The notes under the pieces are model-generated. The model saw only the letters and a list, made by a program, of their open reading frames with translations. It searched no databases and was not told the DNA's origin. A DNA stretch of 64,000 nt from assembly GCA_003290165.1 (NCBI GenBank), contig QNQO01000525.1, positions 372,001 through 436,000 on the forward strand, given 5' to 3'. Within the stretch, counting starts at the first letter, position 1. Each line of letters starts with the position of its first letter. Source of the DNA: Berberis thunbergii (Eukaryota; Streptophyta; Magnoliopsida; Ranunculales; Berberidaceae). A program made the position numbers and the translations under genes. Positions 1,981 through 47,146 of the stretch are shown here, piece by piece.

Positions 1981-2724
1981 TGTTGGGACAAATACCAATA
2001 AAACAATACCAAGGAAATAATCTAAATCAATAATAAACGAGACACCAAGATTTACGTGAAAAACCTTTCAATGTGAAGGAAAAAACCACGGGTCAAATCC
2101 GAGAGAATCCACTAATCAAATAAGAAGAAGTACAATGACTTCTCAAGCTTTTTGCCCAAAGCTTGAGTAATACAAGGACTAAATAACACTGGTTACCTCA
2201 CAGCAAATTAACCCAAAAGCTCATTCAACTTCTTCTACCAAATCAATCGACAAAACTAAGTCGGTATCACTGCCACGCGTCACACTTTGTTGCACAAAAT
2301 CGCGCCCAAAGAATCAGACACAAAGTCACGGTCCATACGCACACAGCCGCACCAAACACCAAAGAGAATATTGCTTATTCACACAACAACTTCTCTGAAA
2401 ACTCTATATCATAAAACTCTGTATTATGTACATATTTATACTTGTTTGCAGCCACCCAAATAGAACATTGTTTCTATTTCATTACCAGCTGCCAAATAGA
2501 ATTTTTTTTCTATATTCAAATAGAACTTTGTTTCTATTTAATTAACACCGCCTCAAATAGAACTTTGTTTCTACTTAATTAACACCGCCTCAAATAGACA
2601 TTTGTTTCTATTTATTTTTGTTTTTGTTTCTTATTGAAAACAATTTTCCTTTATTCAACCAAACTTGAAATTATGTTTGATTACATACCAAAGTTGGATC
2701 CACCCTAATGGGCTGGACTCAACA
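1981..2724 (-). repeat. 3' LTR of the copia element
   Basis: This is a 744-bp LTR. On the plus strand it begins TGTTGGGACAAATACC and ends GGACTCAACA, giving the canonical TGTTG...CAACA ends. A C-rich stretch at 2725-2738 abuts it, which is the polypurine tract on the minus strand. The first 285 bp are repeated at 5483-5768. Confidence 0.93.
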
Positions 2725-2738
2725 AATCTCCCCCTCGA
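2725..2738 (-). other. polypurine tract of the copia element
   Basis: On the minus strand this reads CTCGAGGGGGAGATT immediately before the LTR start. It is the expected plus-strand primer site. It lies only a few bases downstream of the truncated pol stop, which shows how much of pol was removed. Confidence 0.8.
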
Positions 2739-2743
2739 GACCA

Positions 2744-4252
2744 TTAGGGAAGAATCACAGTCTTTTGGGCAAAACCTTTTACCACTAACCGAGCTTTGTG
2801 CTTCACATTCTTTTCATCACCATCATTTTTCAATTTGCACACCCATTTGTTCTTCAAAGGTTTTTCACCTTTTGGAATCTCAACTAAATCATAAGTACCA
2901 TTCTTATGCAAGGAACTCATCTCTTTTTGCATAGCTTTCATCCAACTATCTTTATTTTTATGATTTAGTACTTCTTGAAAATTTTCTGGTTCACCTTCTT
3001 TTATTAGGAAAACATATTCATCATTGGGGTACCTCTTTGAAGGTTGGCGCTCTCTGGTAGACCTTCTTAATTGAGGCTCTACTATTTTTTGCTGAAGGGG
3101 CCGCTCTTCATGCACAGTCCCATCTATTTCTACACGATCATCATTAACAACTTCATTTTCTGGCATATGGTCACTAACTATATCATCTGGCATCTCTCCC
3201 CCATTTTCAACATGCGACAAAGGAGAAGGAAGTGGTGTAAGATCTGCTACCTCATTATTTATCTGCCTGGGCTTTTCAATTTTCTCAAAATCTACAATGG
3301 TATGATTTTCATAAAATACCACATCTCTGCTTCTAATAATTTTCTTATTCTCATGATCCCATAATCTGTAGCCAAACTGTTCATCTCCATAACCAATGAA
3401 AATACATGTAGATGCCTTCTCATCAAACTTTAATCTCTTCTCTTTCGGTACTTGAACAAATGCTTTACAGCCAAATACCTTCAGATGAGAGTATGAACTA
3501 TCTTTCCATCTCCACACTCTTTCTGGAATGTCACCATCTAAAGAAAATGAATGAGACCTGTTGATGAGATAACAAGTTGTGCTAGCAGCTTCAGACCAAA
3601 ACTCTTTTGGCAATTTAGCCATGCGAAACATGCATCTCACATTTTCTACAATAGTCTGGTTCATTCTTTCTGCTACCCCATTATGATGTGGAGTGCCAGG
3701 AACTGTCTTTTCATGCCATATACCAAGCTTACTACAATAAGCTTTAAATTCTTTTGATGTGTATTCGCCACCATTATCACTGCGGAAACACTTTAAAACT
3801 CTACCTGTTTCTCTTTCAACCTTAGCATGAAACTGCTGGAATTGCTGAAAAACATGTTCCTTAGATCTGAGAAAATATATCCAAACATTTTTTGATGCAT
3901 CATCAATAAATGTCAAAAAATATCTACTACCACCAAGAGAATCTACTTCAATCGGACCATAAACATCAGTGTAAACCAAATCTAACAAACCATGTTTTCT
4001 TTTTGATGATCTAAGAAATGCAACTCTATGATGTTTACCAAATAAACAATAATTACAGGAGTTAAGAGGAGTACCTTTCAAGGAGGGAATTAATTTTTTC
4101 TTTTCTAAAAGTTGCATACCTTTCTCACTCATGTGTGCAAGTCGCATATGCCACAAGTTTGTAGAAGAACCATTTTCATCTCCATTCAAACCAGTCTTAC
4201 ACAATTTCACTTGAGTCTTGTATAGTGTGCAACATGCCTTACCCTTTGCCAC
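2744..4252 (-). pseudogene. copia integrase with truncated reverse transcriptase
   Basis: The open frame is about 500 codons. Near its N-terminus is the HHCC zinc-binding module of copia integrase (LWHMRLAHMS, then CNYCLFGKHHR). The catalytic core follows, with its aspartates in DVYGPIEV and FRSDNGGEY and its glutamate in HHNGVAERMNQ. Next come the usual VFGCKAFV and ARLVVKGF regions. The last is the very start of reverse transcriptase. After KGFAQK the frame reads four more residues and stops, directly against the polypurine tract. The YVDD catalytic centre and all of RNase H are therefore absent. What remains looks well preserved, with no stop across the integrase. The protein is a cut-down polyprotein segment, and the element must have depended on others to move. 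Confidence 0.93.
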
Positions 4253-4276
4253 AACAAGTGAACCTTTGGTAAGTTT

Positions 4277-5514
4277 TTATGTACCATTACCAAAATAATT
4301 AATATACCCTTGTTTATCCAAAACAAGTCCAAAAATCAGGTTCAGACGAAGATCAGGAATATGACATACATCTTTCAAAGTCAAAGTGCACCTCATATTA
4401 GTCTGGACACACACATCACATGTTCCTACTATTTTAGAGTTGTCAGTGTTTCCCATCTTCAAATTGCCAAAATCTCTTTTTCTATAAGTAGTGAAATAGT
4501 CTTCTTTCCTTGGGGTTGCATGATAAGATGCACAGTGTCAATAATCCATTTGCTTCCATCATTTGCATCATGCAAACATTCACCTTCGCCATACAAAAGA
4601 GCCACGAGTTTATCAGTAACAACAGCTGTAGCTTCTTTACTATCACCACTCTTCACTTTTACCTCTTTCAAATCTTTCCGGTAACTATAACATTGTTTTC
4701 TGAAATGGTCTGCTTTACCACAATAATGACACTTAAAACTTCTATCTCTTGACTTTGATCCCCCTTTTGACTTATCAAGGTTCTTATCATAATCATGATA
4801 TTTTATATATTTTTCTCTCCCCCTGTTTTCAGTCACAAGTGCTTGGGAATGATCAGTATCGGCAGACTTCCTTCTAGTTTCTTCATTAAATAAACTACCG
4901 GTAACCAACTCCATGGTAAGTTGTCCATTCGGTGCCGAATTACTAATCGACACCACCAATGTTTCCCAACTATCTGGTAATGACCTAAAAAGTAATAGTG
5001 CTTGCATTTCATTATCTAACACTATCTTCATGTTGGACAACTGATTCACCACACTTTGCACTTCATTCAAGTGCTCAATAATAGAACTACCTTATTTGAA
5101 TTTCAAGTTTACTAACTTCCTGATCAAGAAGGTCTTGTTTGCAGCAGTTTTTCTTTCATATAAATTCTGGAGTTTGGTCCAAAGAGCATGGGCAGACGTC
5201 TCAGCCGACACATGATGAAATACCGAATCATCTAACCATTGCCTGATGTGACCAATAGTTTTTCTGTTTAATTTCTTCCACTATTCTTCTGACATATCCT
5301 TGGGTTTAGCTGCATCTTCCTTAATTGGAGGGTACAAATCCTTACAGTATAATATGTCTTCCATTTTGGCTTTCCAAATAACATAGTTTGAGCCATTAAG
5401 GCTAATCATCCTTGTATTGTTGTTATTCTCCATGTCAACTCTTTTAATTGACAATCTCCCAACAATTGCTCTGATACCACTTTGTTGGGACAAATACCAA
5501 TAAAACAATACCAA
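4277..5514 (-). pseudogene. copia gag and protease region, broken frames
   Basis: Three minus-strand open segments make up the gag part. The first (5281-5514) has the typical copia gag start, with LNGSNYVIWKAKMED followed by DLYPPI. The second (4459-5070) has the gag core with the motif LLRSLPDSWETL (here LLFRSLPDSWE) and a CCHC zinc knuckle CHYCGKADHFRKQC near 4690-4730. The third (4277-4462) has a downstream stretch typical of the protease-integrase linker (VCHIPDLRLNLIFG). The segments are separated by stops at about 5070-5280 and near 4460. The protease active site region around 4500-4560 reads WIIDTVHL where copia elements normally have WILDSGA, so that catalytic motif looks lost. Confidence 0.85.
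5468..5479 (-). other. primer-binding site of the copia element
   Basis: On the minus strand this is TGGTATCAGAGC, three bases inside the 5' LTR boundary at 5483. It is the standard initiator-methionine tRNA primer site of plant copia elements. It fixes the orientation of the element and the inner LTR edge. Confidence 0.9.
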
Positions 5515-5768
5515 GAAAATTATCTAAAACAATAATAAATGAGACACCAAGATTTACGTGGAAAACCCTTCAATATGAAGGGAAAAATCACGGGTCAAAT
5601 CCGAGATAATCCACTAATCAAATAAGAAGAAGTACAATAACTTCTCAAGTTTTTTGCCACAAGCTTGAGTAATACAAGGAGTAAATAACACGGGTTACCT
5701 CACAACAAATTAACCCAAAAGCTCCTTCAACTTCTTTTACCAAATCAATCAACAAAACTAAGTCGATA
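5483..5768 (-). repeat. 5' LTR of the copia element, truncated
   Basis: It matches the first 285 bp of the other LTR, beginning TGTTGGGACAAATACC. Similarity stops at AACTAAGTCG, where the left LTR continues with GTATCACTGCC and this copy runs straight into TGGTATCAGAGC of another element. More than 450 bp of this LTR are missing. Confidence 0.9.
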
Positions 5769-6429
5769 TGGTATCAGAGCCGATGGTTCGGCGGAGACTT
5801 GGCAAGTGGTGCAAGACAACACATTGTTGAAGGGATCCAGCGCGAGGTAGCGAGCCATGTAGAGCATCGCATGTGCGCTGTCCGAGGTGGAGGTGCAGGC
5901 GGCACATTGTTCTGGGGATCAAGTGCGAGGTAGCGAGCCAGGTAGAGCGTCGCATGTGCGCGGTCCGCCAGATGAATGGATCCAGATTAGGTTCCAGATC
6001 CTTGCTAAAAGAATGTATCCTACAAGTCCAGACGAGATGGAGTTAGTGCGGTGGTTGCGATTAAGGTGGAGCCAATAACACCAGGATAACATCCCATACA
6101 CCAAGTGCTACCCATAGGATCATGCTCGCACATGAGACTCGAGGAGGATGTGTACTTCGAGGTATAAGATGTGTGACGATTCACGCAAACAGTGGAGATT
6201 GTTGGGATGAAGTTGACTTGAATAGTCCTACATCAAGTAAGGTGGAGTTGTCACTAAGATTTATAAGGGAGTGGTCCACTCCTTAATAAAAACGAAGCCT
6301 TTTAAAATTAAAAAAAAACCTCACACTCATGACCCGGATGGTAGGCCCACGTTGCGGTGCTTAAGTTGGAGACAATATCGTTGCTATGTATATTGACTTA
6401 GGTGCGCGCACGCACTGAGCGCGCTAACA
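5769..6429 (+). mobile_element. small plus-strand LTR element (TRIM-like), 5' LTR missing
   Basis: It begins exactly at a methionine-tRNA primer-binding site, TGGTATCAGAGC (5769-5780). About 420 bp of non-coding internal sequence follow, then a purine tract GTGGAGAT and a 3' LTR at 6200-6429. The internal part contains two copies of GCGAGGTAGCGAGCCA (near 5840 and 5923), a short internal duplication. No gag or pol is encoded, and the open frames at 5758-6104 are chance. The 5' LTR is absent because the copia LTR is joined directly to the primer site. Confidence 0.7.
6200..6429 (+). repeat. LTR of the small TRIM-like element
   Basis: About 230 bp, starting TGTTGGGATGAAGTT after a purine tract and ending GCGCTAACA, so the ends form TGTT...AACA. 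It includes the string ACTTGAATAGTCCTACATC, a pattern I associate with small plant LTR repeats. There is no second copy in the window, so the boundary rests on terminal motifs only. Confidence 0.65.
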
Positions 6430-8690
6430 ATTTTAGGTGATTTTGTCAATTATCAAGATATATTCCAATGTTATTCCAGAATGAACATACCCTGTCATCC
6501 TAAAACGTGGTTAACTTGGAGATAATAATAATAATAATATATAAGTAATGCATTGTTGGAGGACTTTGGGAGATATTTTTTTATCTCTTTATTTAATTCC
6601 AAAGATTATATAAGTTTATAAATGTTGATAGAAGAAGCTTGGTAAAACTTAAACGTACTTGCTAAAACATATCTGTGTATGTACGAGTTTATCTTTGATA
6701 AAACAATTATATATGGATTGTATTGAAATATTATCATCATAATTCAAAAAGGGCAAATGACAAGTATATAAATACATATGCATCCACATATAATTTTCAA
6801 ATTTAAAATCTTTTTTTAGTGAAAGGGGGCCAACTTGGCTAAGATCTGTCGAGTGATTAGTTTCAAGTAATAAGCTTCATGAAAATTTTTATTTTTTATT
6901 TTATTTAGAACATAATAGTATAAATCCCACAGAGAGATCTCTAGAACAGTTTTATAATACAGATTTATAACTTTTTAATGCTTATAAATAAAAAAGAAAA
7001 ACTAGCATATGATAAATATTTAAAGGAGCGAAATTTCTGAACAAGATAAATTGTCTACCGTGAACTCTCTTGCAAATATTTGTAGAAAATTACTAACTTA
7101 ATAACTATGTTGTGCATAATTTCGAACAGCAAGTCAATATATGTGAGGTATCGCATCAACTCGCTCGCTGTAATGACTGCTTTTCCACCAAATTGAGCTT
7201 ATTGTGAGGTCGTGACAATGCGACAAGGAACTCATACCAAAAGGTATTAGAATTTAATCAATATCAGACAATCCCTAATGTATTTATTTGGACATCATTA
7301 CTGAAATTAAAGAGAGTGATGTATGCTTATTTAGTTGGTTTGACCTTTGATGACCCCATCTAATCTCCAATCAAGGATGGAATAATTTCCATGCCTTGTG
7401 ATGTTATTTCCATGCCTCACAAAACATCACAAGGTAGAGTGAACAGAGAAATTTGTTGGTTACACCTAACAAATACAGGAGATAAGAACAAAATTCAAGT
7501 TACATGTTTTACAAGCCAATAAATACAACGTGGATGGTACGAGACCTCACTCAGCTTCTACATTTAGGGTTTAGAGTGTTAGAAGTGGTAAGTATAAAGT
7601 CACCTAAGTGAGGACAGTTTTGTATAAATACAATAATATACAGTGGTATACTAGACTCGTATTGTTCACGCCTGTTGTGACATCGTATGAAGCTCGTTAA
7701 TGGCTTATTCTTACTGATTATGATGGTTCAATGAAAGTATTAGTGACAAATACATGGTGGAGATGAGTTTTTAGGGTTGGAAAATGACGATTTCACTAGC
7801 CAAGGATATTGTAACTCTGTTGCTAAAAATGGATTAGGATTGTTCACGTGCAATGTGGTTAATAGACAAGAGGCGTGCTATTTGAACTAATTAATTATTT
7901 TTTTCATCATGATAATATTGGAAAATGACATGCAACAGATTATCGAGTTATTGTTGACATTAATGTGAAAGGGCACCTGCCCATGTTTTTCTACTTCTCT
8001 TGATTGTGTTAACTAGGAAGAAGAAAGACAGCTTTCTGTATGGCTTGTTTGGTTAAAGAAAAATGTACTGGAACTTAAAGGAGGTTGAGGAAGACATGGG
8101 GGATTGATTAGTAAGGAATTTTTAGAGCTAAATACTGATTTAGCTAGCATGAGAAACAATTGAGTATGTATATTCATTTCTTCACTAATTCTACAACAAA
8201 TTGGATATCATCCATGTTTTGCATTTATGAAAACCTGAATTGAAATAGACTGACTGAAAGATTTTGTAATTCATGGGACCGCCAGCAATGGATGACAGCT
8301 GCTTCATGGGATTGATGCATATAGATGTGTATTGTCATAAGTCTCAACGCAACATCTTTTTGTAAAATGGGTTTATACATACACCTTAATCTAAGTGTTC
8401 GCATCAATAAACAATCTTAAGTGGACAGTGTCAACACTCCCCGTCAGCAGCGAAAATGTTAGATAGTAACAGAAAAACGCCTTAGCAATTGTGTTGGGCC
8501 AAAATTGAACTCTCTGCCTATCAGAGCTTTGACGCTTTGTATAATATAAAACTTACAAGGTTTGTTCATGGACAACCAGAGTGAACTTAAATAAACATGA
8601 GTGCTCAACACCTCCCATACATAGCACCCCAAATGCGCATGCCAAGGGTAATCCTCTTTCCAAAACTCCAATATAAGTCATGAAAACCGA
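6430..8690. other. intergenic, no gene seen
   Basis: AT-rich sequence between the retroelement cluster and the NAC promoter. Open frames at 8225-8407 and 8459-8671 (minus) show no domain or splice context. I see no RNA gene or clear repeat. Confidence 0.6.
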
Positions 8691-12165: not shown

Positions 12166-12970
12166 CAGGGGTGGACCTACCAAAGGGCGAGGGGGGGGGG
12201 GGGCAGCTATTGGTGTAGTGGTAGGAAGTTTGTAAATTTTTGTAAACAACCCGAGTTCGATACTCATCGAACGCATATTTTTTTTATGGTTATTGATAAT
12301 TACTATTTTTATCATTGTTACTTGCCTAGTTTTTTTTATTTTCAATACAATTTTATAATAATTGCAAACATTAAAAAAATTGTTTAGTTTAATAAAAATT
12401 TATTTTTGGTCCTCTCGGAGCGTATGATTTTTTTATGTTTATACAATTTTGTCATTGTGACATTTTCCTACTTTTTTGTTTTCAAAAAAATTTTATATGT
12501 AATTGCAAACATTATAACAATGAATTGCTTGTTCACAAGTGGCGTAAAACCTCCAACCAAAAAAATATTTGAAATTAATATCTAAAATAATAACTAAAAA
12601 ATTCAATGAAAATATATGCCACTAGCCAACTCGTACAAAATTTGAGCCTCATAAAACATTTTTTGATGAAATTGTATTATGATCTTATTATGTTTGTAAA
12701 TATTCGATTTTTTTTAGCTTCAATTAGATATTTATCCTAATTATTTTGTGATTTTCGTTATATATTTTAGTTATTACGCTCGTTTACCCCTTGTTAAGGT
12801 TATTGATATTTTGACCTTATTTTGGCTTAAAATTGAATTACATTTAATTCAATTTGGTATATACAATATATTTTTATAATTATATTTTTCTTATTTTACT
12901 AACTCGAGTAAATTTTTTTTTTTTTTTTTTGCCATTTTGCCCTCCTTTGACTAAAATCCTGGATCCGCTT
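12166..12970 (+). mobile_element. degraded non-autonomous DNA element, possibly hAT-like
   Basis: The left edge reads CAGGGGTGGACCTACC and is followed by a G-rich run. The right edge reads GCCCTCCTTTGACTAAAATC and then CTGGATCCGC. The pattern CAGGGGYGGA...TCCRCCCCTG with G-rich and C-rich inner flanks is common in plant hAT-type elements, but here the right terminus is degenerate. I could not find a target duplication. The inside is AT-rich and non-coding apart from the tRNA-like boxes at 12211-12265. Confidence 0.35.
12205..12275 (+). ncRNA. tRNA-like pol III promoter pair (SINE head or tRNA relic)
   Basis: TGGTGTAGTGG (12211-12221) fits the tRNA A box TRGYNNARNGG. GTTCGATAC inside GAGTTCGATACTC (12253-12265) fits the B box GWTCRANNC. 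The spacing is about 40 bp, within the tRNA range. A T-run follows at 12279. The sequence does not fold into a full tRNA by eye, so a tRNA-derived SINE head is more likely than a tRNA gene. It may also be coincidence. Confidence 0.35.
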
Positions 12971-30673: not shown

Positions 30674-31190
30674 TGATGCGTCCAAAATCCAGTTTCCAGT
30701 AAGTTAAACCTGCAAAACATATGTTAGATTGCCAAATACCACCTTTTTGATGGCCGAAGGCACTACGATGCTTAAATCAGTAACTCAGTTAGAGATGAAA
30801 ATTAAACTGAACATAACTCAGTTAAAATTGCATACCTTTGGCGAGTGTTTCATTTCCTTTTATAGTGGTCGCTGTTAATTCCCTGCGTGACTTAAGCATG
30901 TGAGGTGCAACAAGTAGAAATGTCCTCTGTAAGAGTCTCCTCTATTATGAAGATATGTCCTTGGTGGCGTAATTCCCTCCACAACTCTTTGTCTCTATAA
31001 CGTTCCTCCTTTAAGAGAGAACTTTATTGGGTTGTGGTTTATTTTGATGGTCTTTGTTTGGGCTTTCTTTGACTAGATTTGCCTTTTTTGGGCTTTATGT
31101 ACTGGCCTATTTTGTGATACTTCATTCTCGTGATAGATAATTTCTTCCACATGTACAGCTATGATGTTAGTCTTATTTGATGTATCATCA
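30674..31190 (-). repeat. 3' LTR of the Tat-type element
   Basis: A 517-bp LTR. It starts TGATGCGTCCAAAATCC and ends TTTGATGTATCATCA. It aligns along its length with 46260-47087 once the hAT insertion there is removed. Confidence 0.92.
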
Positions 31191-31245
31191 GCAACTCCGT
31201 CCTTTAGTTAGTGGGTATGCAGACGTGGCCACTAACTCGACAATG

Positions 31246-31495
31246 CACTACACCAAAAGGCTTGTTTAGCTACGGGGAGGTGGCCACGGCTCTAAGCCGT
31301 TGGTTTATTTGTCACGGCTAAAAATCGTGGCTATAACGGCCAACGGTGTAAAATCGTGGCTAAAAAATAAAACCGTGGCAAAAAAACACTACACCAAAAG
31401 GGTTGCCACGGTTTTAAACCGTGCCTATAACTGCCAACGGTTTATAACCGTGGCTAAAACTGCCATTGATTTAAAACCGTAGCTAAATTTTTTTC
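31246..31495 (+). repeat. left terminal and subterminal repeats of the CACTA element
   Basis: CACTACACCAAAAGGC at 31246, a second CACTACACCAAAAGGG at 31387, and several forms of ACGGTTTAAAACCGTGGCTA in both orientations. The second terminal motif suggests that one element end inserted in, or duplicated next to, another. Confidence 0.9.
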
Positions 31496-31499
31496 ACTT

Positions 31500-33820
31500 T
31501 CGCGTTTTGGCCAAAATAGTTTTGCGCTTTGGCGAAAAAAATTGATGAAAAACAAATTCTCACAAGGGAAAAAGAAGGACGAAAGAAGGAGAGGACGATA
31601 GAAGAAGAAGCAGGGATGAAACAGATTCTCGAAGCAGGGAAAAAAAAGGACGATAGAAGGAGAGGACGATAGAAGAAGAAGAAGAAAAAGAAGAAAGTTT
31701 GAGAAGGTAAGATCTCCTTCTTCTTCTTTAGATCTCCTTATTCTTTAGATCTCTTTGTTGATCTCTTCTTCTTGTTTTTTTTTCTTCTTTCAGCAACGCA
31801 AACCCTAGAACTTACTTTCTTCTTTTCTCCAGCTCAATTTCTGAAGAGGAGAAGAAGAAAATTTCTCAGAATGGATCAATTTCTCCACTCCCGAAGAAGA
31901 TTGTTTATGATGAAGCCTGGTTTTGCAAGCCTGATATGATTTCCCAACAACCCATTGAATAAATTTTTGATTTTTATGTTAAATGTTAGATGAACTTCTT
32001 TGTTTTTCCTGTTGAAGACTGTCGGCATCCCAAGACTATGGAGGATTTCATCAGATCTACACCCTCATTGAAGGTTTTACTTTGAATCTCAATCAATTAG
32101 GGAGAAAGTTTAAATCGGGTTTTTGCTTGATAAAAATCGGATTGTTATTGTTTGGTTTTGTCATCAGTGAAGAAGCTTCACTATTGTCTATAAGTTATTT
32201 AGATGTTAAAATTGATAAGGAATGATATGTGTTTTGTATTTTAGGTTAGGTTTTCTCTGCACATACAAAACTTTCCATGTGAATCATCATCCAAAGTGTG
32301 CTTCAACACCTGACATGCTTTCAGTATTTCTCTACCACTTATGTTAGGTATTCACTTTTTAGTGTCATAACCTTCTTGTTTAGTGCTTATATCCTTGATA
32401 TATTTAGATAACAATGACTACCAAGCATTAATCTGCTAGTGCAATTGTACTCTAGCACTTCTGCGCGCCATGTTTGGGTACTAGATTTAATTATTTGAGT
32501 TTCTACTGTACCATAATTGCAATTGTTTATATGCTTTAAAATGTGTTTGACATCTCACTTTTCTTATGCCTTATGTTGAGCTTACGTTTCTATGCTTTAA
32601 ACTGTGTTTGACATCTCCTTTTTTATATGCCTCATGTTGAACCAATGTGAAACCTTAGGAAGAAGGGAGTATGGAGAAGTTTTTGTATGTGCAATTGAAT
32701 ACCTTGCCCTTTTACCAGTGGATAGGACAATGGAGAAGTTTTTGCATGTAAGTATTCTAGGTAGCAACTGCGCGCGCATGGTTTGTTTCCACTTAACAAT
32801 TAAAATCACTCATCGGTTTAAGGCTTTAAGCAAATGCATGCATTAGACAATTATGCCATATTTTAAAGTCAATCCATCAACCCACTCCTTCATTTATTGT
32901 TTGGGAATTTTTTTTGATTTATCCCTATATTTATGATTTATGTTTTTTACTTTGTTAAAGTTTGCTTCTTCAACTCCACTGATTTTTTTGGATACTTTGC
33001 AATATGTTTGATTCACTAAAAATCTTAACTTAACTCTTTGTTTTCCCTGTAAAAGGTTTGATTTAATGGGGGGTTCGATTGAGGAATAAATATTTCTCAG
33101 AGTTGACTACTTTATGCAGGCTTTTTGGCCTTCAATAGTAATGAAGAAATAGCTAAACATTAAGCCCAATGTGAACGAATTCAGTGAAGATGAAACCGAC
33201 ACAGAAACTGAGAGTGAGGATGATGGTATGCTGTTTAAATATCTCTACCAAGATTAGAGTAATGGAAATATTATGTATGTTTGATATTATCTTCTCCGAC
33301 TTTTGTCCAGCATGCTCCCTTAACGATGCAAAAACAGTTATCACCAAGGATCAAGTTCCAACAACTGGACAGAGTCGGTTCACAACTCCATATCAAACTT
33401 TAGGCAATAAGAATTCTCATCAAACTCAGATATTTAATTCATCAAACTTCTATGAGTTTTCTTGCTGGCATGGATCTTCGAATAATTAAAATGCCTTTTT
33501 GACCTTCTTGATGATATATGAACTGACATGATTTCTTTCTTTCTTTCTTCTTCTTCTTCTTATTTTTTTTTCATTGTACACGTATACCATAACTTGAGTA
33601 GTTCAAGACTGTTTGGAGTAATACTCGTACTTGGTCTGTCCAGGAATACCATTAAAACATAGAAGACGAAAATCAGAAACCATACGTGCTCAGTACATAA
33701 ACACAAAGGAAGTGAGGTCTGGGTGCTAAGTATTGTTATTATACTTCCTTTTTTCTTTTTTTGGAATATTAGAATTTGGTTTTGATTTAGCTCATCGCCC
33801 TTATTATGCTATTGTGTAAA
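31500..33820 (+). other. left internal region of the CACTA element, origin unknown
   Basis: The stretch contains purine-rich GAAGAAGAAG tracts (31560-31700), leader-like AAACCCTAGAACTTAC text (31800) and short open pieces, for example KKIVYDEAWFCKPDMISQQP near 31900 and DETDTETESEDDG near 33190. They could be exons of further captured genes, but I recognise none. The frames at 32604-32846 and 33184-33489 have no clear domain. Confidence 0.4.
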
Positions 33821-33821
33821 T

Positions 33822-35711
33822 TTGGTTTCCAAGAAGCCAAAGTCTGTTCAATCGAAATCCAAAATTTTTCCAAAGAAGGGATTGATGAAACCCTTTAATG
33901 AGTCCCCCTCCAAGCATAAAGACCAATCAGAGAAGGCGAATGAGCCGAAATCTAAGCGAGAAGCTCGTCTTCAGAGCAAGGTCAGTCACTTTTCAGATTG
34001 TTGCTGTTATCATTAAATATTTTGGAAATGGAAGTTTGTTTCATTTTTATCGCCAACATCCATATTTTATAATAATTATCATTGTTGGAATTAGTGTTGG
34101 TGTGTTTTCATTGATGTTCTTCATTCTGAAAATAGCTCGTACTTCTCATGTACCAGATTGTTAGTGGTTTCATTTGCAATTATATCTTTAACTCCTGCAC
34201 AAGCAGCAAAGCATAAATATTATCAATGAAGGGAAATATCTCTCTGTTCATGGGAGTTCATGTGGTATTTTATTTCAATTTTTTCGTGGATCAGCGTCCT
34301 AGTCTTCATAAAAATATCCTATAGGAGATTATGATATTTCTTGGTAATGTAGATTCGTGTAATGTCAGTGCTACATCAAGTCAAAGATGCATCATCTTTT
34401 TGGTTTTAACTTATTGTAGGCAGAAACAGAGGCAAAGAAGAAGAAGAGGAAGAAAAACTATGATCTTCAACATGTAAGCACCAAGTTCTTTTAGGGGTTA
34501 TGGATTTTTTTGATTGGTCAAAGGATTATTTTTAAAAAATAAAATTCTTTGTTACATTTCATATTTGGTTTGTATAGGAGCCCTATGGGAGAAAATGAGG
34601 CGGCGCAATATTGCTAAAGAAGACAGATCGAAGTAAGAAGTTCATTTTTAATAATGGGGTACTTTTGTAGAAATATTTTAGTAATATTGCTAACTTTGTT
34701 CACTTTAATATTTTAAGAATGGTGAGTGAAACTGTACAGAAGATGAAGGGGAAGATACCTGAAATTGCCATGTCCCATGTATCTTCTCAGGTTTTGCAGG
34801 GTAATATTATTCTCTTGCTGACTTCTCTTCCATTTTCATTTGATTTACTATTAACTGCAGTAGGGCTTTGCTTGTTTCATATTAGACTTGTGTCAAGTAC
34901 TGTACCCAACTTGAACGAGATGCCATATTTAAGGAGCTCCAGCCCGATTTTCTTACGCTTGCGCGTAACGCATATTCAGTTCATCTAGTGAAAAAGATGA
35001 TAGACAATGGTATGTTTCTGCAGAGAAAGTGGAAAATTGAAAGTTACGACAATGTTGATTGGAGATTTAGGGCATTGAAAATCTGATTTTCTTCTTTCTG
35101 ATTTTTTTTTCTTCATGATGCTGCAGCCAAACAGTTGGAAGGTTTCATCTCTGCCCTCCATGGGCATGTTGCCTCTCTTTTCCGTCATATGGTTGGATCT
35201 GTTGGTATGTTATAACCGATTCAGTTTACAGCAATAGAAATTTTCTTGTATTTTTATTCTTTGTGAAATTGCTTTATTTGTTAAATACATCCAAGGATTG
35301 TTAAAGTCAAAGTTTGAGTAATCTTGGGTATGGTGGATCATTATTTTGCTTGGATTTGTTTGACTTAGTTGAGTGATATCAGACTTTACTGATGTCTTTA
35401 ACATTGGTTGCTTTTGAAAATGGACTTTAGTTGCTCCCAGGCTAAGAAGTAGGGGAAAAGGGGCACAAAGTTTCTTATAGAAACATGTTTTCTTGTGAAA
35501 ACATTCTATATTTCTTTATTACATATTCGTGCATATTTGGTCGAACTTTGCAGACCTGATGTTTTTAATATTGCCTAATGGTTCTTATTTGGCAGTTGTT
35601 GAACATGCCTACCAATTGGAAAATGCATCTCAGAGACAAAATCTATTGTTCGAGTTGTATTCAACAGAGTTTCAGCTGTTCAAGGATTTGGCTTCATCTA
35701 AAGAAAAAAGG
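33822..35711 (+). pseudogene. captured fragment of Pumilio homolog 24 (PUM24/Puf6-type)
   Basis: Seven exons with mostly intact GT-AG borders, about 33822-33980, 34420-34473, 34578-34632, 34716-34800, 34886-35010, 35127-35203 and 35596-35711. Readable pieces are SKKPKSVQSKSKIFPKKG and SKREARLQSK (basic N-terminus), ALWEKMRRRNIAKEDRSK, MVSETVQKMKGKIPEIAMSH, TCVKYCTQLERDAIFKELQP, NAYSVHLVKKMIDN, KQLEGFISALHGHVASLFRH and VVEHAYQLENASQRQNLLFE. These match the N-terminal part and first Pumilio repeats of the nucleolar RNA-binding protein PUM24, which acts in ribosomal RNA processing. The C-terminal repeats and CPL domain are absent. Introns are kept, so genomic DNA was captured. Confidence 0.88.
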
Positions 35712-36089
35712 TTTGCTTCAAACGTTAAGCATATCCATATCTCCTATTTACATCTGTGCAATCAGCTTAGGCATTTTTCTATGAACACTGCCAAGATTTA
35801 GGCAAAGCTAAGACTCGGTCACTGCTTGGTCCAGTCCTCCTTGCACATGATGGTTCAATCGAAAACAAAAAGGAACCCCAGTAACACAAAGTTGTGATAT
35901 ATTCTCCGCTAATATAAGCTGATCTTTTTGAATGCTTGTTTCTTTTTGTGTATAAGTGATAATAACTGATATATTATCAAATAGAGTGTCATCAATTTCT
36001 CTGAATTGAGCCTCACCATCCAGATAAATTCTTTTGGAGGGGAAAGTTTTATGGGGAGCATGACGATTTCAAACGCTTCTCATTTTTCA

Positions 36090-36459
36090 GTCGTGCAGCA
36101 CTTGAGTTGCTTCTTCAAGCTGGCAAGAAACCGGATATAATTCATTGCCATGATTGGCAAACATCTTTTGTTGTAGGGTCAAATAACTTTGAAAATATCT
36201 TGCTTATAGTTGTTGATTTTATCTCAATTGGATAGTCTTAGTAAATTATGTTATTGCTTTCTAGGCACCACTTTACTGGGATCTGTATGCAACCAAGGGT
36301 CTTAATTCAGCTCGAATTTGCTTTACTCGCCACAACTTTGAATATCAAGGGAAAACACATGCTTCAGAGTTGGGATCTTGTGGCCTTGATGTTTACCGAT
36401 TAAACAAACCAGATAGAATGCAACACCATTCAACACGTGGCAGAGTCAATCCTGTAAAG
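36090..36459 (+). pseudogene. captured fragment of starch synthase 4
   Basis: Two exons, about 36090-36176 and 36265-36459, with an acceptor TTTTCAG before the first and CTAG before the second. The first reads RAALELLLQAGKKPDIIHCH and DWQTSFVV. The second reads APLYWDLYATKGLNSARICF, TRHNFEYQGK, ASELGSCGLDVYRLNKPDRM and RVNPVK, then a GTAGAT donor. This is the N-terminal GT5 catalytic domain of plastid starch synthase IV. The usual FTCHNFEYQG is FTRHNFEYQG here. The fragment lies only 380 bp from the PUM24 piece, in the same orientation. It lacks the ADP-glucose-binding KTGGL motif and cannot be active. Confidence 0.88.
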
Positions 36460-36484
36460 GTAGATAATATTTTGCCCTTCATTC

Positions 36485-36850
36485 AGCGATTTGTCTGAAA
36501 ATTCCCTTTACGGGGATATTCCATTTAGTGAGATAATAAGGTTTATTGATCCATTTGTATTCAGGTTTTCAAAGAGCAATCAGTTGACAGGTCCCATTCC
36601 TTCGACATTGTCACAAATTCCTAACCTTAAGACACTGTATGTATATTCACTATTCCATTGCACAACTTTAAGATGTTATGCACTTCTATTTATTGAAACT
36701 TTAGCCTATCTTCTCAAATATGTCCAATTAGATGTGGGAGACAAATTTTCAATTTTATGTCTGTATTTACTGCATTGACCTTGCTCAGAATCAACTCACT
36801 GGTGAGATTCCAAGGCTAATCTATTGGAATGAAGTTCTTCAGTATCTGTG
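36485..36850 (+). pseudogene. captured fragment of ERECTA-type LRR receptor kinase
   Basis: Leucine-rich repeat exons in order: DLSENSLYGDIPFS (about 36485-36526), SNQLTGPIPSTLSQIPNLKT (36566-36638) and DLAQNQLTGEIPRLIYWNEV LQYL (36780-36848; 24 residues in two parts). Introns lie between successive repeats, as in ERECTA. The string LTGEIPRLIYWNEVLQYL is characteristic of ERECTA-family receptors, which control organ shape and stomatal patterning. Only two to three repeats are present; signal peptide, membrane segment and kinase are absent. Confidence 0.85.
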
Positions 36851-36973
36851 AGTATTCATCCATCACTTCTAGTAGCTCTTAAACTATGTTTTATGTTTAA
36901 CTGAAATATTACTGTTAAGTTTGATCTTTAGTAGTCTTTTTATGCTAAAAGATAACGTATTTGCATTCTTATA

Positions 36974-37300
36974 CACTACACCAAAAGGCCTATTTAGCTA
37001 CTAATATTACCAAGGCATTCACTGGCCTTTAATATTATTGTTTTTGGTTTTCTGTATGGGGAAGCCAAGGCATTCACTGGCCTTTATATGTACTACCACC
37101 ACTGCTGTTGCTGGTTCTTCTGGGTCTTCTTCAGCTGTCAAGAAACCTAAACTGTTTCAAACTACAAATTCACATACTTCAACTTCTAATACTACTTCCC
37201 CTAGAAGCTTAGATACTAGCTCTAGCCACCAAGGTATGTTAAGATTCGTCTCTAGCTCTTTATTGGTTGTGATTTCATAGATCAAAACACTTCAAATGGT
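36974..37300 (+). repeat. internal CACTA terminus with unidentified exon-like piece
   Basis: CACTACACCAAAAGGCCTATTTAGCTAC at 36974-37001 is (in two overlapping reads) the same end as at 31246, in the same orientation. Just after it, CCAAGGCATTCACTGGCCTT occurs twice (about 37010 and 37066). The following frame at 37080-37235 is serine- and threonine-rich (AVAGSSGSSSAVKKPKLFQ, then TTSPRSLDTSSSHQ) and ends at a donor-like GTATGT. It looks like coding sequence from a fifth gene that I do not recognise. Confidence 0.6.
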
Positions 37301-37759
37301 GTTTTTTTATTTTTTATTTGTGATTTTATCAAATTCTAAAAAAAATTCAGTGGGCATCTCTCCTATGATATTGTAGAACAATGGGTATCTCTCTTTTTAT
37401 TGAAATAAGTTCAAATGAGTGTTTTCTGTTGTTGTTCACATCTTATACATGAAAAATCCAAATTAGTACTATTGGTCACAAGAAGTTGAAATGGGTTTCT
37501 CTTTTGATGTAGTCTTATAGGGTCAGAAGAAGTTGAAATAGATTTCTCTTTTGATGCAAGTCAATAAAGAAGTGATCAAAGTCACAAATAAACAGGCCTT
37601 GATCTAGTAAACAGGCCTGCTTGGTACAAGGAGAAAGTCTACCCTGCAAATAAGGTGATATTGATAAACCAAAATCGTCTTACACCATAACGTGTTCTTT
37701 GAAAACACATTCTCAATCTATTTGATTGTCCACTTATACAAAAGTTCCATTTTTACAGG

Positions 37760-38597
37760 TACCTGCATTGGAACATAATAATGAAATCAGAGGAGAGAGT
37801 ATTGATTTGATGAAGTATATCGATGGGCACTTTGAAGGACCAGCCCTTGTCCCTGAGGTAAATATGCCTAACTTATGTTTCTATGCTTAATAGCAAATTC
37901 ATGCTATAGGCCTTGCATTCTCACTAGTTCATGTTTATTCTGCACAATTTAGGATCCCATAAAAAGGGAGTTTGCGGAAGAGTTGTTGTCCTACACAGAC
38001 ACCTTCACTACCGTCGTGATGGCTGCACTAAAACAGAATGCAAATGCTGGTAAGACTAAACACTTTATTTTATAAATTTAGTCTGAAATAGACTTCAAGT
38101 ATATACATGATCAAGGACTGATTTGCATCATTTACCTGCGTCAGATCCTACCTTTGATCACCTGGAAACTGCTATCACCAAATTCGATGACGGGCATTTC
38201 TTCCTTGGCCAGTTCAGCCTGGTAACTTATATATCTTTTCCTCCGCGTTAGATATTTTCTGTTTTATCTTTTTCAGTTCATCCTTATTGTGTCTAATGAT
38301 TGAGTTAACATTTGTATGTGACCTTTAGGTGGATATTGCCTACATACCATTCTTTCGGCGATACACTCGCTTATTGTTGGATGTAAAGAATTATGACATC
38401 ACAATAGGAAGACCTAAGCTGACATTATGGCTTGAGGTGTGCCATCAATTCCTTTACATATTTTTTTAGGTCTATTAAGGGATAAACTTATAAGATCGAT
38501 ATTTTACCAATTGCTGAATCTATTATGTAGGAGATGGAGAAGGTTGAGGCATATACACAAACAAGATTAGATCATGAGGAGATCATTGCAATCTAAA
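37760..38597 (+). pseudogene. captured fragment of lambda-class glutathione transferase
   Basis: Five exons with GT-AG borders, about 37760-37857, 37953-38049, 38145-38220, 38328-38435 and 38531-38597. The readable text is VPALEHNNEIRGESIDLMKY, FEGPALVPE, DPIKREFAEELLSYTDTF, DPTFDHLETAITKFDDGHFF, LGQFSLVDIAYIPFFRRYTR, YDITIGRPKLTLWLE and MEKVEAYTQTRLDHEEIIAI with a stop. It covers the end of the thioredoxin fold and the all-helical domain of GSTL/DHAR-like proteins. The N-terminal catalytic cysteine motif (CPFAQR) is not included. The natural 3' end and perhaps a polyadenylation region (AATAAACTGTATC near 38870) came with it, so it could supply a transcript end to the composite. Confidence 0.88.
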
Positions 38598-39104
38598 AGA
38601 TGCGCCTTTTGGTACAGTCTTTCTCTACATATACTTAAAGTTCATTACAGAATGATACAAATTTGATAGTCTGAATACTAAGCTTCTCCTGTTTTTTTCT
38701 CTTGCAGAAAACAAGCTGATGATTTGGCTGCACCAAGCTGTTGTTTTACTTAATTTTAATGTGTTTGTACGTAATAGAGCTAGTGAGGATGATATTGTTG
38801 TGCAATGTAATAAATTCGAGGTGGATGGTTTAATTTGTATTTCCTGATTTGTACATGATGTTTGTCATCAATAAACTGTATCAAAAATCAAAATTACTCG
38901 AGTTGATGGTCAATGGAACCAAATTGATATTGATTCACTCTTCTCTTATTCACACCCAGAAGTACCAAATATTTAGTCCCATGGTATGAAGTGGGATCAA
39001 TATATTTGTTCCATGTGACCCGACTTTGATCACTTATTTATTGGCTTATAGTGGGTCAAAATGTCAGTAGAACTGCATTGGCTTAACACCGTGACCAAAC
39101 AAAA

Positions 39105-39427
39105 AAAAAAAAAGCAAATTGCCACGGTTTAAAACCGTGGCTAACTATTACAACGGCTAAGAACCGTGGCCATACCTTGCAACGGTTTTAAGCCGTGGCT
39201 ATTCCTGGACATGGCTTAAAACCGTGGCTAACATTTTTGCAATGCTTTAGAACTGTGGCTAAATCATCAACTGTCCTCGAGTATAAAACCGTTGCTAATA
39301 TTTTTGCCACGGTTTTTAGCCGTTACTGGGGATTTAGCGACGCCTCTACAGCCCACGGCTCTAAGCCGTGACAATGGGCTACCCCCACGATTCAAAATCG
39401 TTGCTAATGGGCATTTTTGGTGTAGTG
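39105..39427 (+). repeat. right subterminal and terminal repeats of the CACTA element
   Basis: Seven or more copies of CCACGGTTTAAAACCGTGGC-like palindromic units, ending GCATTTTTGGTGTAGTG. They mirror the left array. Confidence 0.9.
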
Positions 39428-39707: not shown

Positions 39708-42190
39708 ATGTCTGTTAGTAATATGCTAGATGGCGAGGCGTTTACTGCTTGCGAAGGTTACTTCTCACCCAAGAAGGCTTCTCAGGTGACATTGGACAAT
39801 ATTCATTCCAATTATAGCATGCCATCTAACCTCGTGATCATTCTGCTTAGGCAAAATGATAGTCCTTGTCGTCCAAGAACTGGGTATATTGTGCTCTGCT
39901 CGTGCATGTTCTTGTCCGACATTCAATTTCCAGTTCCAGAGCTGTTTTGGGAATATCTTGTTTTTTAAGCATTCCTCCTGCTCAGATAAGTCCTAATGGT
40001 TGGAGGTTATGGTTTGTACTTATGCGAGAGCCATTCTCTCCGGCATTCCCTCAACTGATACAATCATGCATTCAGTGGTTGGTCTATTGGTGACCAAAAA
40101 CATTTGTTTCCTTCATTTTCCCACCTGTTTTGGGAATCTCAATGATGACATCAGAGGCTGGTCGAAATTATGGTTTTATGCTTCTCTTAGCTCTGGCTAC
40201 TTCAGATTGCGAGGTTGTCAGATTGCGCGGTTATTCCGAGTCCCTAACAAATGGAACGACCAACAACTAACTGTGGAAGAGCAAATGATCGGGGATCGTT
40301 TCTTGTGATCCCCTTGGAGGCGATTTCTCTTTGGGAATATTGTGAGGCGTAATGGCTTATATACTATGAACGAGGCGGAACGGGCTTTGCTTACTGAATC
40401 CCAAGTTGAGGAGATCGTTGCTCGCGCTGTTATTGCTGGTGTCAATAATGCTAGCATTGATGGGGAAGTGAGCTTGGGCAAACATGTTATGGATCTCGAT
40501 GTTCCTACTTGCACTAGCATCGCTAGCCCGACTTCCAGGAAGAGAAAGCTTCCAAGGCCTGTTAGCCCGTCCAAGCAATTGATGATATATCCTAGCCGTG
40601 TTCCGAAAAAGAAACTGATTTCCTCTTGTGGTACTGTTCGGGTTGCTTCTCACCCGGGCTCTTCTAATAAGGAAGTTGTGAAGGAGGATCGTTTATCCCT
40701 CAAAGAGGCTGAGGAAATGACTTTGGCAATGGAGAGGAGTAAGAAGGAAACTACTCGTCCGTTGGACAATAATAAAAAAGGCTTCTTTTTCCATGGTGTG
40801 CCCGACATTGTTGAATGCTTTGATGATGATCTTTGAGTTATCCATGATAAGATTCTTCAACTGGCAGTGGAACAATCAAAGGAGGTTGGTGACCGTGTTC
40901 ATAATTTTTAGGTTCTTCCTCCTCGATCTCCTTCCGTTCCTGTCAATGATGCGGTTGGGTTCTTATCATCTTCTCCCACTCGTTTGGATCCTTCTGTTCC
41001 TATCGCCAATACTACTGGTTATGTTCCTAGTGCGACCACTTTATAGTGAGAAGGCAAGAGTAATTTTTCTGTTATCACCGATGTTCCTCTCGTTTTTCCC
41101 GCTATTTGGAGGTGGTTCCTCTATGCTTCTGGATCCTTTTGCCTTCACCCACAAATTAGTTGGAAGGAGCCCAACCCGGAGGACATCCGTATCAAGTCAG
41201 ATGGAAAGTTTTGTGGGTTTACCCAACTTGACGTACAAGATGATGCACATAGGTTGGTCAATGAATGGCATAGGCATGCGGTAGAAGGGCCTTCAATGCC
41301 TATGCTGAATCTCAGCACTCATATCGACTATTGTCTCAAGCAGATAATGGATGGGATGAATGATCTTGCTTATACTGCGGTTATGGGTCGGAGTACAGGA
41401 CTGTTCGTGGCCAGGTGGTTGCTCTTGAGAGGAAGTTGGCAGCGTTGTTGCTAGTGTTTTCTCACGTCTTTAATCAATTTGACGTGTTGAAAACACAGTG
41501 CGTGGAGCAGAAGATGGCAACTGGGGTTGCTTTGGCCTCTTTAAAGGAGGTGGAAGATGCCCGAGATAAGTCTGTGGCGGAGCTTGAGACTTCGACGACC
41601 CACTTTATACGAGGAACATGCACGATTGGACTAGTTGGAAAAGAGTTGTCTGTCGAGAAAGCTGACCATGATAAGGCCATGCGTTCCGTTGTTGAGCAGT
41701 CGGTCAGTCTTAGGATTGCTGAAGAGCGGGTGGAGCAGTTGATAGTTGTACTTGATGAAGTCAAGTCCGATATTTTCGCCATGCTAGCCACTGCTGAAGG
41801 GCAACTGATTTCAACTAAGTGTGAGCTTGCTGCATCAAACGATAGGCTAAGGATTGTGGAGGTGGAAGATTGGAAGAAAGTTGTTGATGGGCGAGTCGAG
41901 CTCCTTGACTATATTGAGGGGTTCGGTGTCGACTTACCCGAGTATCGTCACTTGGTTGATCAATTCTTTGAGAATGAAGATGCTGAAGAAGGTATTTAGG
42001 ATTTCCCGAGGGATCCTGTAGAGGAAGAACCGTCATCCCCTCCTTCTGATCAGGCTCCATTACGTGTTCTTGTCGTTGAAGGGAAAACCTTGTCTCCTCC
42101 TGTTACTATTGCTTCAGTCTCTCTTCCATCGGAAGGCCTTGTTGCTACTTCGAATGTTCTATCTTCTCCTTTGGATGTAGTAGAGTGATT
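39708..42190 (+). pseudogene. antisense ORF of a Tat-type element (putative gypsy type transposon domain)
   Basis: The likely start is MSVSNMLDGEAFTACEGYF. Next come LFWEYLVFLSIPPAQISPNG with WRLW, then GNLNDDIRGWSKLWFYASLS and LFRVPNKWND, the pattern of the plant domain called putative gypsy type transposon (PF04195). A lysine-serine-rich middle (SRKRKLPRPVSPSKQL) follows. The C-terminal part (41415-41999) is a long predicted coiled coil: ALERKLAALLLVF, KADHDKAMRSVVEQSVSLRI, then a tail LPEYRHLVDQFFENEDAEEG. Frameshifts occur near 39950-40100 and 41420, and stops at 40306 and 40836, so it is broken. Such genes run antisense between pol and the 3' LTR in Tat elements; their role is unknown. 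Confidence 0.75.
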
Positions 42191-42699: not shown

Positions 42700-43300
42700 G
42701 CTAAATAAGTTGACTCATTCGTTCTTGCCTCATTGGTTTGACGCGTTAGTCGACCTGAGGTTTTTCTGAGTAAGTTGACTTGTTCATCCTAACTTTTACT
42801 TCATTGGTTTGACATATTAGTCAACTCAAAATTTACTTAAGTAGACTGGTTCATTTCAACTTTTACTTTGTTCGTCTGACGCATTAGTAAACTCGAAGTT
42901 TATTTGAATAAGTTGACTTGTTTTTCCTAACTTTTACTTCGTTTGTTCGACATAGAAATCGACCCAAAATTTGTTTTAGTAAGTTGACCGGTTTGTCCTA
43001 ACTTTTATTTCGTTTTTCTATCATATTAGTCGACTCAAAGTTTATTTGAATAAGTTGACTTGTTCATCCTAACTTTTACTTATTTCGTTTGACGTATTAG
43101 TTGACTCAAAGTTTATTTGAATAAGTTGACTCGTTCGCTCTAACTTTTACTTCGTTGGTTCGGTATATTAATCGACCTGAAATTTGTTTGAGTAAATTGA
43201 CTGGTTCGTCCCAACTTTTACTCATTTCGTCTTACGTATTAGTCAACTTAAGTTTGAATAAGTTGACATGTTCGTCCTAATTTTTACTTCTTGGTTGATC
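42700..43300. repeat. tandem repeat, about 69-bp unit, nine copies
   Basis: Unit type: TAAGTTGACTTGTTCATCC, TAACTTTTACTTCGTTGGTT, TGACGTATTAGTCGACTCAA, AGTTTATTTGAA. Starts are near 42709, 42770, 42838, 42908, 42978, 43049, 43120, 43191 and 43257. Copies differ at many sites. It lies inside the Tat element between the antisense gene and gag, where such elements often carry tandem repeats. Confidence 0.88.
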
Positions 43301-46259: not shown

Positions 46260-47087
46260 TGATGCATCCAAAATCCAAGTTCCAATACGTAAAACCTGCA
46301 AAACAAATTTTAGATTGCCAAAAACCACCTTTTTAGTGGATGAAGGCACTCCAATGCTTAAGTCAATAACTCAGTTGGAGATGGAAATAAAATTGGACAA
46401 AACTCAGTTAAAATTACATACCTTTGTCGAGTGTTCATTTTACCTTTTATAACATTGTTAATTCCCTGCGTGAATTAAGCATATGAGGCGCAACAAGAGC
46501 AAATATTCTCTGTAATAGTCTCCTCCTTTATGGAGATATGTCCTTGGAGGTGTAACTTCCTCCACGACTCTCTTTCTCTGTAATGTTCCTCTTTTAACGG
46601 AGAACTTTATCGGGCCTCGGTTGGGGTGGTTTATTCTAACGGCTATGTTTGGGCTTTATTTTATTGGATTTGCCTTTTTTGGGCTTTATGCACCGGTCTG
46701 GTTTTGGGATACTTGATCCTCGTGATTAGGATTGAAAACCGTAACCGACTAAAACTAAACCAAAACTGAAATAAAACCAAATCGACCAACTATTTTAAAC
46801 ATATTATATTATTTTTATATAAAATATATATTATTTATTATATATATTCAGTTGGTTCGGTTTGGTCAGTTACAATCACATAGAAACTGAAAACCGAATC
46901 GACCACTTCGGTTTTGAATTTTTTTTAAACCAAAATCGAACTGAACCTAAACCGAACTAATCGGTTCGATTTTGATCAGTTCAGTCGGTTTAATCAGTTT
47001 GGTCGATTTTTTGTTCAACCCTACTCGTGATGCATAATTTTTGCCTCGTGTACAAATGTGATGTCGATCTTATTTGATATATCATCA
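46260..47087 (-). repeat. 5' LTR of the Tat-type element, interrupted by a hAT MITE
   Basis: Starts TGATGCATCCAAAATCC and ends TTTGATATATCATCA. It is 828 bp including a 297-bp MITE plus 8-bp duplication, so about 523 bp without them, matching the 517-bp partner. Confidence 0.92.
46727..47023. mobile_element. hAT-type MITE nested in the Tat 5' LTR
   Basis: 297 bp with ends TAGGATTGAAAACCG and, reversed, TAGGGTTGAACAAAAAATCG. A perfect 8-bp duplication CTCGTGAT flanks it (46719-46726 and 47024-47031). The partner LTR at 31120-31135 shows the empty site TTCTCGTGATAGATAATT. The inside is full of alternating AACCGAAC/GGTTCGGTT motifs. Confidence 0.94.
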
Positions 47088-47146
47088 GTTACCATAATAG
47101 TTATTACTCACAATAGAAATAACTTTTACGTATTGCTAATGTGCAG

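Follow-up and report, generated by a model that had tools for sequence, protein, structure and literature searches.

A multi-gene Pack-type CACTA transposon family with a shared host-gene cassette and internal joins in Berberis thunbergii

A 64,000-bp stretch of the Berberis thunbergii genome (C525:372001-436000 of a 2.24-Gb assembly, hereafter the window; contigs are labelled C and transposon copies L) contains an 8,182-bp CACTA element at positions 31246-39427, which carries pieces of several unrelated host genes, among them PUM24, starch synthase 4 (SS4), ERECTA and a lambda glutathione transferase (GSTL). It belongs to a large family of the Pack-type CACTA kind. The preferred explanation, given a probability of about 0.8, is a multi-gene Pack-type CACTA family with 40 or more copies, allelic contigs included, and with cargo that keeps its introns, likely mobilised in trans and likely recombined by internal deletion. 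The ends, the target-site duplications, the further copies, the PUM24 donor, the internal joins and a fossil end at position 36974 were all read directly from the assembly. The family is the more interesting part of the observation, with one cassette, one known donor, a fossil inner end and many gene-fusing joins. Because the donor, the shared cassette, the fossil end and the joins occur in one genome, its sequence allows capture, fusion, amplification and deletion to be placed in order; the question addressed is how Pack-type elements gain several genes and how often new exon combinations result.

Classification and features of the element

The element was confirmed in the sequence, and its terminal inverted repeats (TIRs), 3-bp duplication and short subterminal units, present in both orientations at both ends, place it in the CACTA (En/Spm) superfamily. 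The 13-bp inverted ends, the ATG duplication and the subterminal palindromes had been proposed in a first-pass annotation made from the window alone, and all are borne out. The terminal features are as follows.

31243..31245, no strand: left target-site duplication, ATG
31246..31258, plus strand: left TIR, CACTACACCAAAA, 13 bp, with a CACTA-type start
31281..31488, no strand: left subterminal palindromic repeats of GCCACGG/CCGTGGC units
31387..31399, plus strand: further left end in direct orientation, set 141 bp inward of the outer one and present in other copies too
39076..39408, no strand: right subterminal palindromic repeats of GCCACGG/CCGTGGC units
39415..39427, minus strand: right TIR, the perfect reverse complement of CACTACACCAAAA
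39428..39430, no strand: right target-site duplication, ATG

Two internal copies of the left end (31387 and 36974), both in direct orientation, are additional to the first-pass account. A transposase domain was not found in the three plus-strand frames of the window copy, and no minus-strand reading of the element stays open for more than 101 amino acids. The element is non-autonomous and multi-copy, as is characteristic of Pack-CACTA elements. MULEs have long ends and a 9-11-bp duplication, and Helitrons have ends without a duplication; a Pack-MULE or Helitron reading was ruled out by the 13-bp ends and the 3-bp duplication.

Copies across the genome

Copies were sought in the assembly, and each count of 40 places given here includes the window and allelic contigs and is a lower bound. 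The left end (401 bp) was present in 40 of 40 scored candidates (4,291 at first look), with 86-95% identity across most or all of the 401 bp in the 39 places other than the window. The stretch 35720-36973, which holds the SS4-ERECTA cargo, was found whole or in part at 40 scored places (780 at first look), mostly at 95-97% identity, and the stretch 36974-39060, which holds the GSTL cargo, was likewise found whole or in part at 40 scored places (817 at first look). A genome search for other copies with the same ends had been proposed in the first-pass annotation. One of the outcomes that would have counted against it, an absence of such copies, did not occur, which speaks for the element.

Twenty stretches representing 19 places were fetched, seven of which were paired as allelic by their flanks (using the right side only for L032 and leaving out L038), giving at most 12 non-allelic places. 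Both ends were recovered for 9 non-allelic places, the window included; the 3-bp duplication is perfect in 8 of them and is mismatched at one base in L035 and likewise in L026, the allelic contig of L021.

L023 (G000:C2132) holds a close tandem pair of CACTA elements in the same orientation, the upstream one having its right end (oriented position 3938) only 171 bp ahead of the left end (4110) of its neighbour.

Host-gene cargo and its origin

All host-gene fragments lie on the plus strand with their introns retained, and are arranged as follows.

33120..33712, plus strand: fifth host-gene-like fragment, AFWPSIVMKK.LNIKPNVNEFSEDETDTETESEDD ... RRRKSETIRAQYINTKE
33826..36008, plus strand: PUM24 fragment, exons P1-P7 with introns; donor at C2486:18177-21446
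36005..36459, plus strand: SS4 fragment, catalytic-domain exons S1 (start cut) and S2
36487..36973, plus strand: ERECTA-family leucine-rich repeat (LRR) fragment, exons E1-E3 with introns; exons within 36487-36847
37002..37595, plus strand: stretch between the internal end and GSTL, with no useful Pfam match
37596..~38900, plus strand: GSTL fragment, exons G1-G6, the probable last exon and 3' region

The PUM24 fragment is 58-73% identical to the best 120 of 2,412 protein matches, every one of those listed carrying PF22493 and PF00806, and the informative names among them are pumilio 24, PUM-HD and Penguin. The SS4 fragment matched PDB 6gne (2.2e-29 and 1.8e-28) and is 81-86% identical to the best 120 of 465 matches. 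The nearest solved relatives of the ERECTA fragment are the ERL1 and ERL2 ectodomains. The GSTL fragment matched poplar GSTL1 and GSTL3, and its identity is backed by the best 120 of 693 matches in a separate search. The four plus-strand, intron-bearing pieces named in the first-pass annotation are upheld by these protein and structure matches, and a fifth probable fragment is added. The latter had no Pfam match and matched PDB entries at chance level only; it is presumably the N-terminus of a plant type I inositol polyphosphate 5-phosphatase. Pfam and PDB searches of the leader and of the piece after 36974 gave nothing useful, the match to PNO1 (E 0.3) being at chance level. Many splice sites are intact, as had been claimed: at the listed predicted positions the acceptor AG is kept at 18 of 20 sites and the donor GT at 16 of 17, the misses being the acceptors of P1 and E3 and the donor of P4. 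P1 does not count as a genuine acceptor site, since comparison with the donor gene places the start of the captured part within exon 1.

The donor of the PUM24 fragment was sought by a protein search of the genome with PUM24 residues lying outside the captured part. The C-terminal exon was matched on C8084, C483, C2486 and, with stops, C1311. The locus on C2486 continues into the remaining PUM24 exons beyond the captured part, and no CACTA end (up to one mismatch) is present in C2486 15600-24600. Compared with the family majority sequence, introns included, C2486:18177-20116 is 97.8% identical over 1,944 bp and C2486:20251-21446 is 95.6% identical over 1,218 bp; the window copy, in the part compared, matches this donor in two stretches, one of 317 bp at 97.5% identity and one of 275 bp at 97.1%. 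The PUM24 paralogue on C8084 reaches 81-89% only. Since the C2486 match covers introns, it was genomic DNA that was captured. The captured stretch runs from within exon 1 to within an intron, with a short T run at the 3' break, and a donor intron holds about 134 bp that the element is without. For PUM24, therefore, the host DNA was copied from a gene elsewhere, at C2486, and for this fragment the comparison with a parental gene that had been suggested as a check gave the identities above. The proposal of a Pack-type CACTA with captured host genomic DNA is sustained by the ends, the duplication, the copies elsewhere and the intron-bearing PUM24 donor.

More than 20 other places hold earlier PUM24 exons only (query residues 3-137), without the C-terminal exon, for example C9:387038, C290:774921 and C148:666130, and are perhaps another set of element-borne PUM24 fragments.

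Internal joins and deletions

L027 (C6288) served as the reference with which the window, the fetched copies and another 14 short stretches were compared, and joins of at least 80 bp were recorded. Twenty distinct joins were found, two that differ by one base being counted as one. The bases common to both sides of a joint number 0-9 bp, or 15 bp in L040; otherwise up to 12 bp of extra sequence is present. Several joins bring exons of different host genes together, fusing PUM24 to SS4 in the window and L034/L036, PUM24 to ERECTA in L045-L048 and L050/L051, and PUM24 to GSTL in L054/L055 and L057. The join in the window is the following.

36005..36008, plus strand: PUM24-SS4 deletion junction; 1,760 bp of L027 missing, ATTG (4 bp) shared

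The additional 1,760 bp of L027 extends PUM24 by further exons, as far as residue 375 of P0001, and adds SS4 exons that precede those of the window, beginning at residue 560 of P0308. The donor gene holds the PUM24 part of this stretch, and there the change is therefore a loss in the lineage of the window copy, which, judged by these sequences, is a deletion derivative. A second loss, common to the window and L027, removed the end of exon E1 and its splice donor (about 90 bp at 36526/36527). It is absent from L034, L036, L035 and L040, and L036 retains the whole of E1, reading DLSENSLYGDIPFSISKLKRLQEL, followed by a splice donor.

One left breakpoint (element coordinate 4748 of L027) is used by two joins, 4748-6153 in L034/L036 and 4748-6509 in the window, which may reflect a preferred site of breakage or an initial step common to both.

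An extension of the preferred explanation can be offered tentatively, with the odds somewhat against it. It holds that a single captured cassette, drawn from four or five host genes, spread in one burst and that internal deletions made from it a varied set of exon fusions, the stacked left ends recording successive fusions and some of the products being transcribed. If correct, exons would have been shuffled combinatorially by deletion, not by repeated capture, across a 2.2-Gb genome (PUM24::SS4, PUM24::ERECTA, PUM24::GSTL and more).

Module boundary at position 36974

The ERECTA fragment ends at an internal copy of the left end, which marks a module boundary.

36974..37001, plus strand: fossil left end within the element, CACTACACCAAAAGGCCTATTTAGCTAC, at the module boundary

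The joint between ERECTA and the internal end was found in 40 of 40 scored places (270 at first look). The bases TTATA directly precede the internal end in 13 of the 20 fetched stretches and in 10 of 10 further loci; the region is deleted in L024, L025, L037 and L038, and L023 does not extend that far. L034 and L036 contain PUM24, SS4 and ERECTA but lack the internal end, their sequence continuing into other DNA from that point. L035 and L040 carry no GSTL after the internal end; its place is taken by 1.9 kb of different cargo with no Pfam match. L040 (G000:C23:745900-755800) has an outer left end, a sodium:sulfate symporter-like fragment (PF00939, 7.1e-34) and behind it a second, inner left end that matches the window's over 185 bp, and its outer left end and right end are flanked by a TAC/TAC duplication. 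The fossil inner end, the pattern of L040 and the tandem pair in L023 agree with a model, outlined in section 9 of PMC8903248, in which neighbouring elements fuse.

The fragments may instead have been gathered singly during gap repair with filler DNA, the end at 36974 being filler and not part of a second fused element. Consistent with such filler, the versions with GSTL and those without it (L035, L040) share no more than about 105 bp downstream of 36974, and the bases before the internal end form no clear duplication; the piece at 36974 is nevertheless 90% identical over 31 nt to the real outer end, and L040 repeats the order of outer end, symporter-like fragment and inner left end. This explanation is judged unlikely, while keeping an appreciable share of the probability.

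Sequence divergence and probable silencing

A tree of 18 rows is star-like, with the non-allelic rows or allelic groups on branches of 0.012-0.026 and inner branches of 0.001-0.002 between them. Changes were counted exon by exon against the majority base in 14 rows from 13 non-allelic places (allelic rows L025, L026, L028, L030, L031, L036 and L037 excluded). Non-coding change from the majority base is 1.7%. Change from C to T, on either strand, amounts to 6.7-7.4% at CG and 4.7-8.3% at CHG sites compared with 1.1-1.3% elsewhere, a methylation-like excess that is the footprint expected of methylated, silenced DNA. The raw ratio of amino-acid change looks constraint-like (0.71 overall, 0.42 for ERECTA, 0.49 for GSTL), yet is not significant after a mutation-spectrum control across the 13 non-allelic places, in which no coding constraint reached significance (P = 0.666 for PUM24, 0.344 for SS4, 0.090 for ERECTA, 0.054 for GSTL and 0.108 for all). 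A selection count from one alignment of the whole element was discarded, as non-homologous stretches had been aligned (pooled non-coding distance 0.21).

The family might act as RNA, with transcripts or small RNAs from the copies lowering the expression of the parent PUM24, SS4, ERECTA and GSTL genes in trans. Many copies of near-identical gene pieces, the 97.8% identity of the family majority sequence to the PUM24 donor and the footprint of silencing would suit such a role, although silencing of the elements need not reach the donor genes, and this action is considered improbable. Any present-day RNA from the copies is most likely non-coding or a source of small RNAs, and not a template for a chimeric protein.

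Coding potential of the window copy

The first-pass annotation had suggested that transcription from one end could give a spliced chimeric RNA joining parts of all four genes, and that the last fragment keeps a natural stop. Two coding lesions in the window copy are listed here.

34578..34632, plus strand: exon P3 of PUM24, with a private 7-bp deletion that shifts the frame
38594-38596, plus strand: private stop in GSTL; TTA in 12 other rows with data (7 non-allelic)

The P3 deletion is absent from 17 other rows with data (allelic rows counted), and the acceptor of E3 has changed from AG to AT, with AG kept in 15 of 15 other rows (allelic rows counted). Because the other rows read TTA, the stop at 38594-38596 is a new mutation and not a natural end, contrary to the earlier proposal, and the natural GSTL stop is probably a later TGA in the next exon. 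When the 15 predicted exon segments were joined (S1, E1 and E3 left out), the longest open reading frame (ORF) was 191 amino acids, 146 of them from PUM24 and the remainder out of frame. In the family majority sequence, by reading of the exon boundaries, splicing from SS4 to ERECTA is out of frame. A stop or frameshift is present in the compared exons (4 to 23 per place) at 12 of the 13 non-allelic places, the exception being L029, in which several exons are missing; single-base insertions and deletions vary between allelic contigs, so some of these may be assembly errors.

A spliced RNA coding for a protein with PUM24, SS4, ERECTA and GSTL parts is accordingly very improbable. Most splice sites are kept, and the soybean element Tgm-Express1 is a precedent for chimeric RNA (PMC1947982). 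Against these stand the private frameshift, lost acceptor and private stop, the short joined ORF, the lesions in nearly all places, the SS4-to-ERECTA frame and coding changes that fit neutrality. A working chimeric protein was rejected on the private lesions, the neutral-like changes and the short joined ORF, the joining of four protein modules inferred in the first-pass annotation is not supported, and the functional inference of a chimeric product is weak. A reading without any transposon, as broken host genes clustered locally or as a misassembly, is virtually untenable given the perfect ends, the duplication and the same structure on many contigs with different flanks, and is refuted by the copies.

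Proposed history of the family

Under the preferred explanation of a trans-mobilised, deletion-prone Pack-type CACTA family, an older element with PUM24, SS4 and ERECTA pieces would have been joined to a second module made up of an end and the GSTL cargo, in line with the fusion of neighbouring elements proposed for Pack-CACTA. This composite would then have multiplied in a burst, likely moved by transposase supplied in trans. Repair errors after excision, or replication errors, may have deleted inner stretches, often at short shared sequences, and a deletion reaching from one fragment into another would bring together exons taken from separate donors. CG/CHG methylation probably silenced the copies afterwards, and their coding parts would drift.

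Several points weigh against this account. L027 is the comparison copy, so some of the "deletions" could be insertions in L027, and polarity is set only for joins inside PUM24 (by the donor) and for the E1 loss (by L036), being assumed elsewhere. A donor was located for PUM24 only among the cargo fragments, and that of ERECTA was not picked out because the genome search was swamped by other LRR genes. No stand-alone second module was found among the 40 scored of 270 candidates, so that the fossil end and L034/L036 are what supports the fusion step, and L034/L036 lie within the star and not at the base of the tree. The bases before the boundary differ (TTATA, against TAATT in L034), so a clean insertion with duplication is not demonstrated. 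GSTL (P = 0.054) and ERECTA (P = 0.090) also have a weak, non-significant shortage of amino-acid changes.

Comparison with known elements

Tgm-Express1, a CACTA element of soybean that lies in the F3H allele wp, contains five unrelated host-gene fragments with exons and introns and yields chimeric transcripts that start from the host gene promoter (PMC1947982). The Berberis element is similar in its several unrelated fragments with exons and introns kept; it differs in forming a large repeated family for which one donor gene and many internal joins are documented. Pack-TYPE elements are widespread, and fusion of neighbouring elements mobilised by their outer ends has been proposed for them (PMC8903248 section 9). 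Like the Pack-CACTA and other Pack-TYPE elements of Arabidopsis, rice and maize (PMC8903248), the present element is non-autonomous with captured host DNA; unlike them, it has four or five genes per 8-10 kb element, a fossil inner end and copies diversified by joins.

Tpn1 of Japanese morning glory has conserved ends, inner parts replaced by host genic DNA and 339 non-autonomous copies, with chimeric transcripts in one case (PMC5105172), and 28 Tpn1 types with different captured genes are described (PMC8195511). The Berberis family is likewise a CACTA family with captured host genic DNA, whereas here one multi-gene cassette is common to the sampled copies and variously cut. Captured fragments are also described in the CACTA families LsC1/LsC2 of lettuce (PMC8195511) and in CACTA elements of Chenopodium, which carry one gene family per element (Neprosin or AP2) (PMC8978399). 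The present family resembles both in being a CACTA family with captured fragments, and it is unlike the Chenopodium elements in its TIRs and subterminal units and in not being limited to one gene family per element. Among the papers listed on the topic (12 of 13 and 10 of 19,859 matches, most subscription papers lying outside this scope), none describes in its title or the opening of its abstract how deletions produce fusions inside a single CACTA family with several captured genes.

Flanks and other features of the window

The left flank of the element (30674-31191) is 80-82% like a second copy at 46260-47088, about 15 kb away, and the element, its left flank being repeated, lies inside or beside an older repeat. 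A reading of the flanks as long terminal repeats was tried; the right flank is not repeated, and an empty site is therefore not demonstrated. The ORFs at 40342-41999, between the two flank copies, had no Pfam match. A one-mismatch copy of the CACTA end lies at 12208-12220 on the minus strand, with no partner found within the window, and a scan of viral contigs for the CACTA end gave 0 matches. On the minus strand at 1979-5769 there is an element between 289-bp direct repeats of 92.7% identity, which is taken to be a Copia-like retroelement, with an ORF at 2744-4252 that is presumably integrase/reverse-transcriptase-like and one at 4459-5070 that is presumably gag-like. A tandem-like repeat block with several overlapping copies of 72-78% identity is present at 42704-43296.

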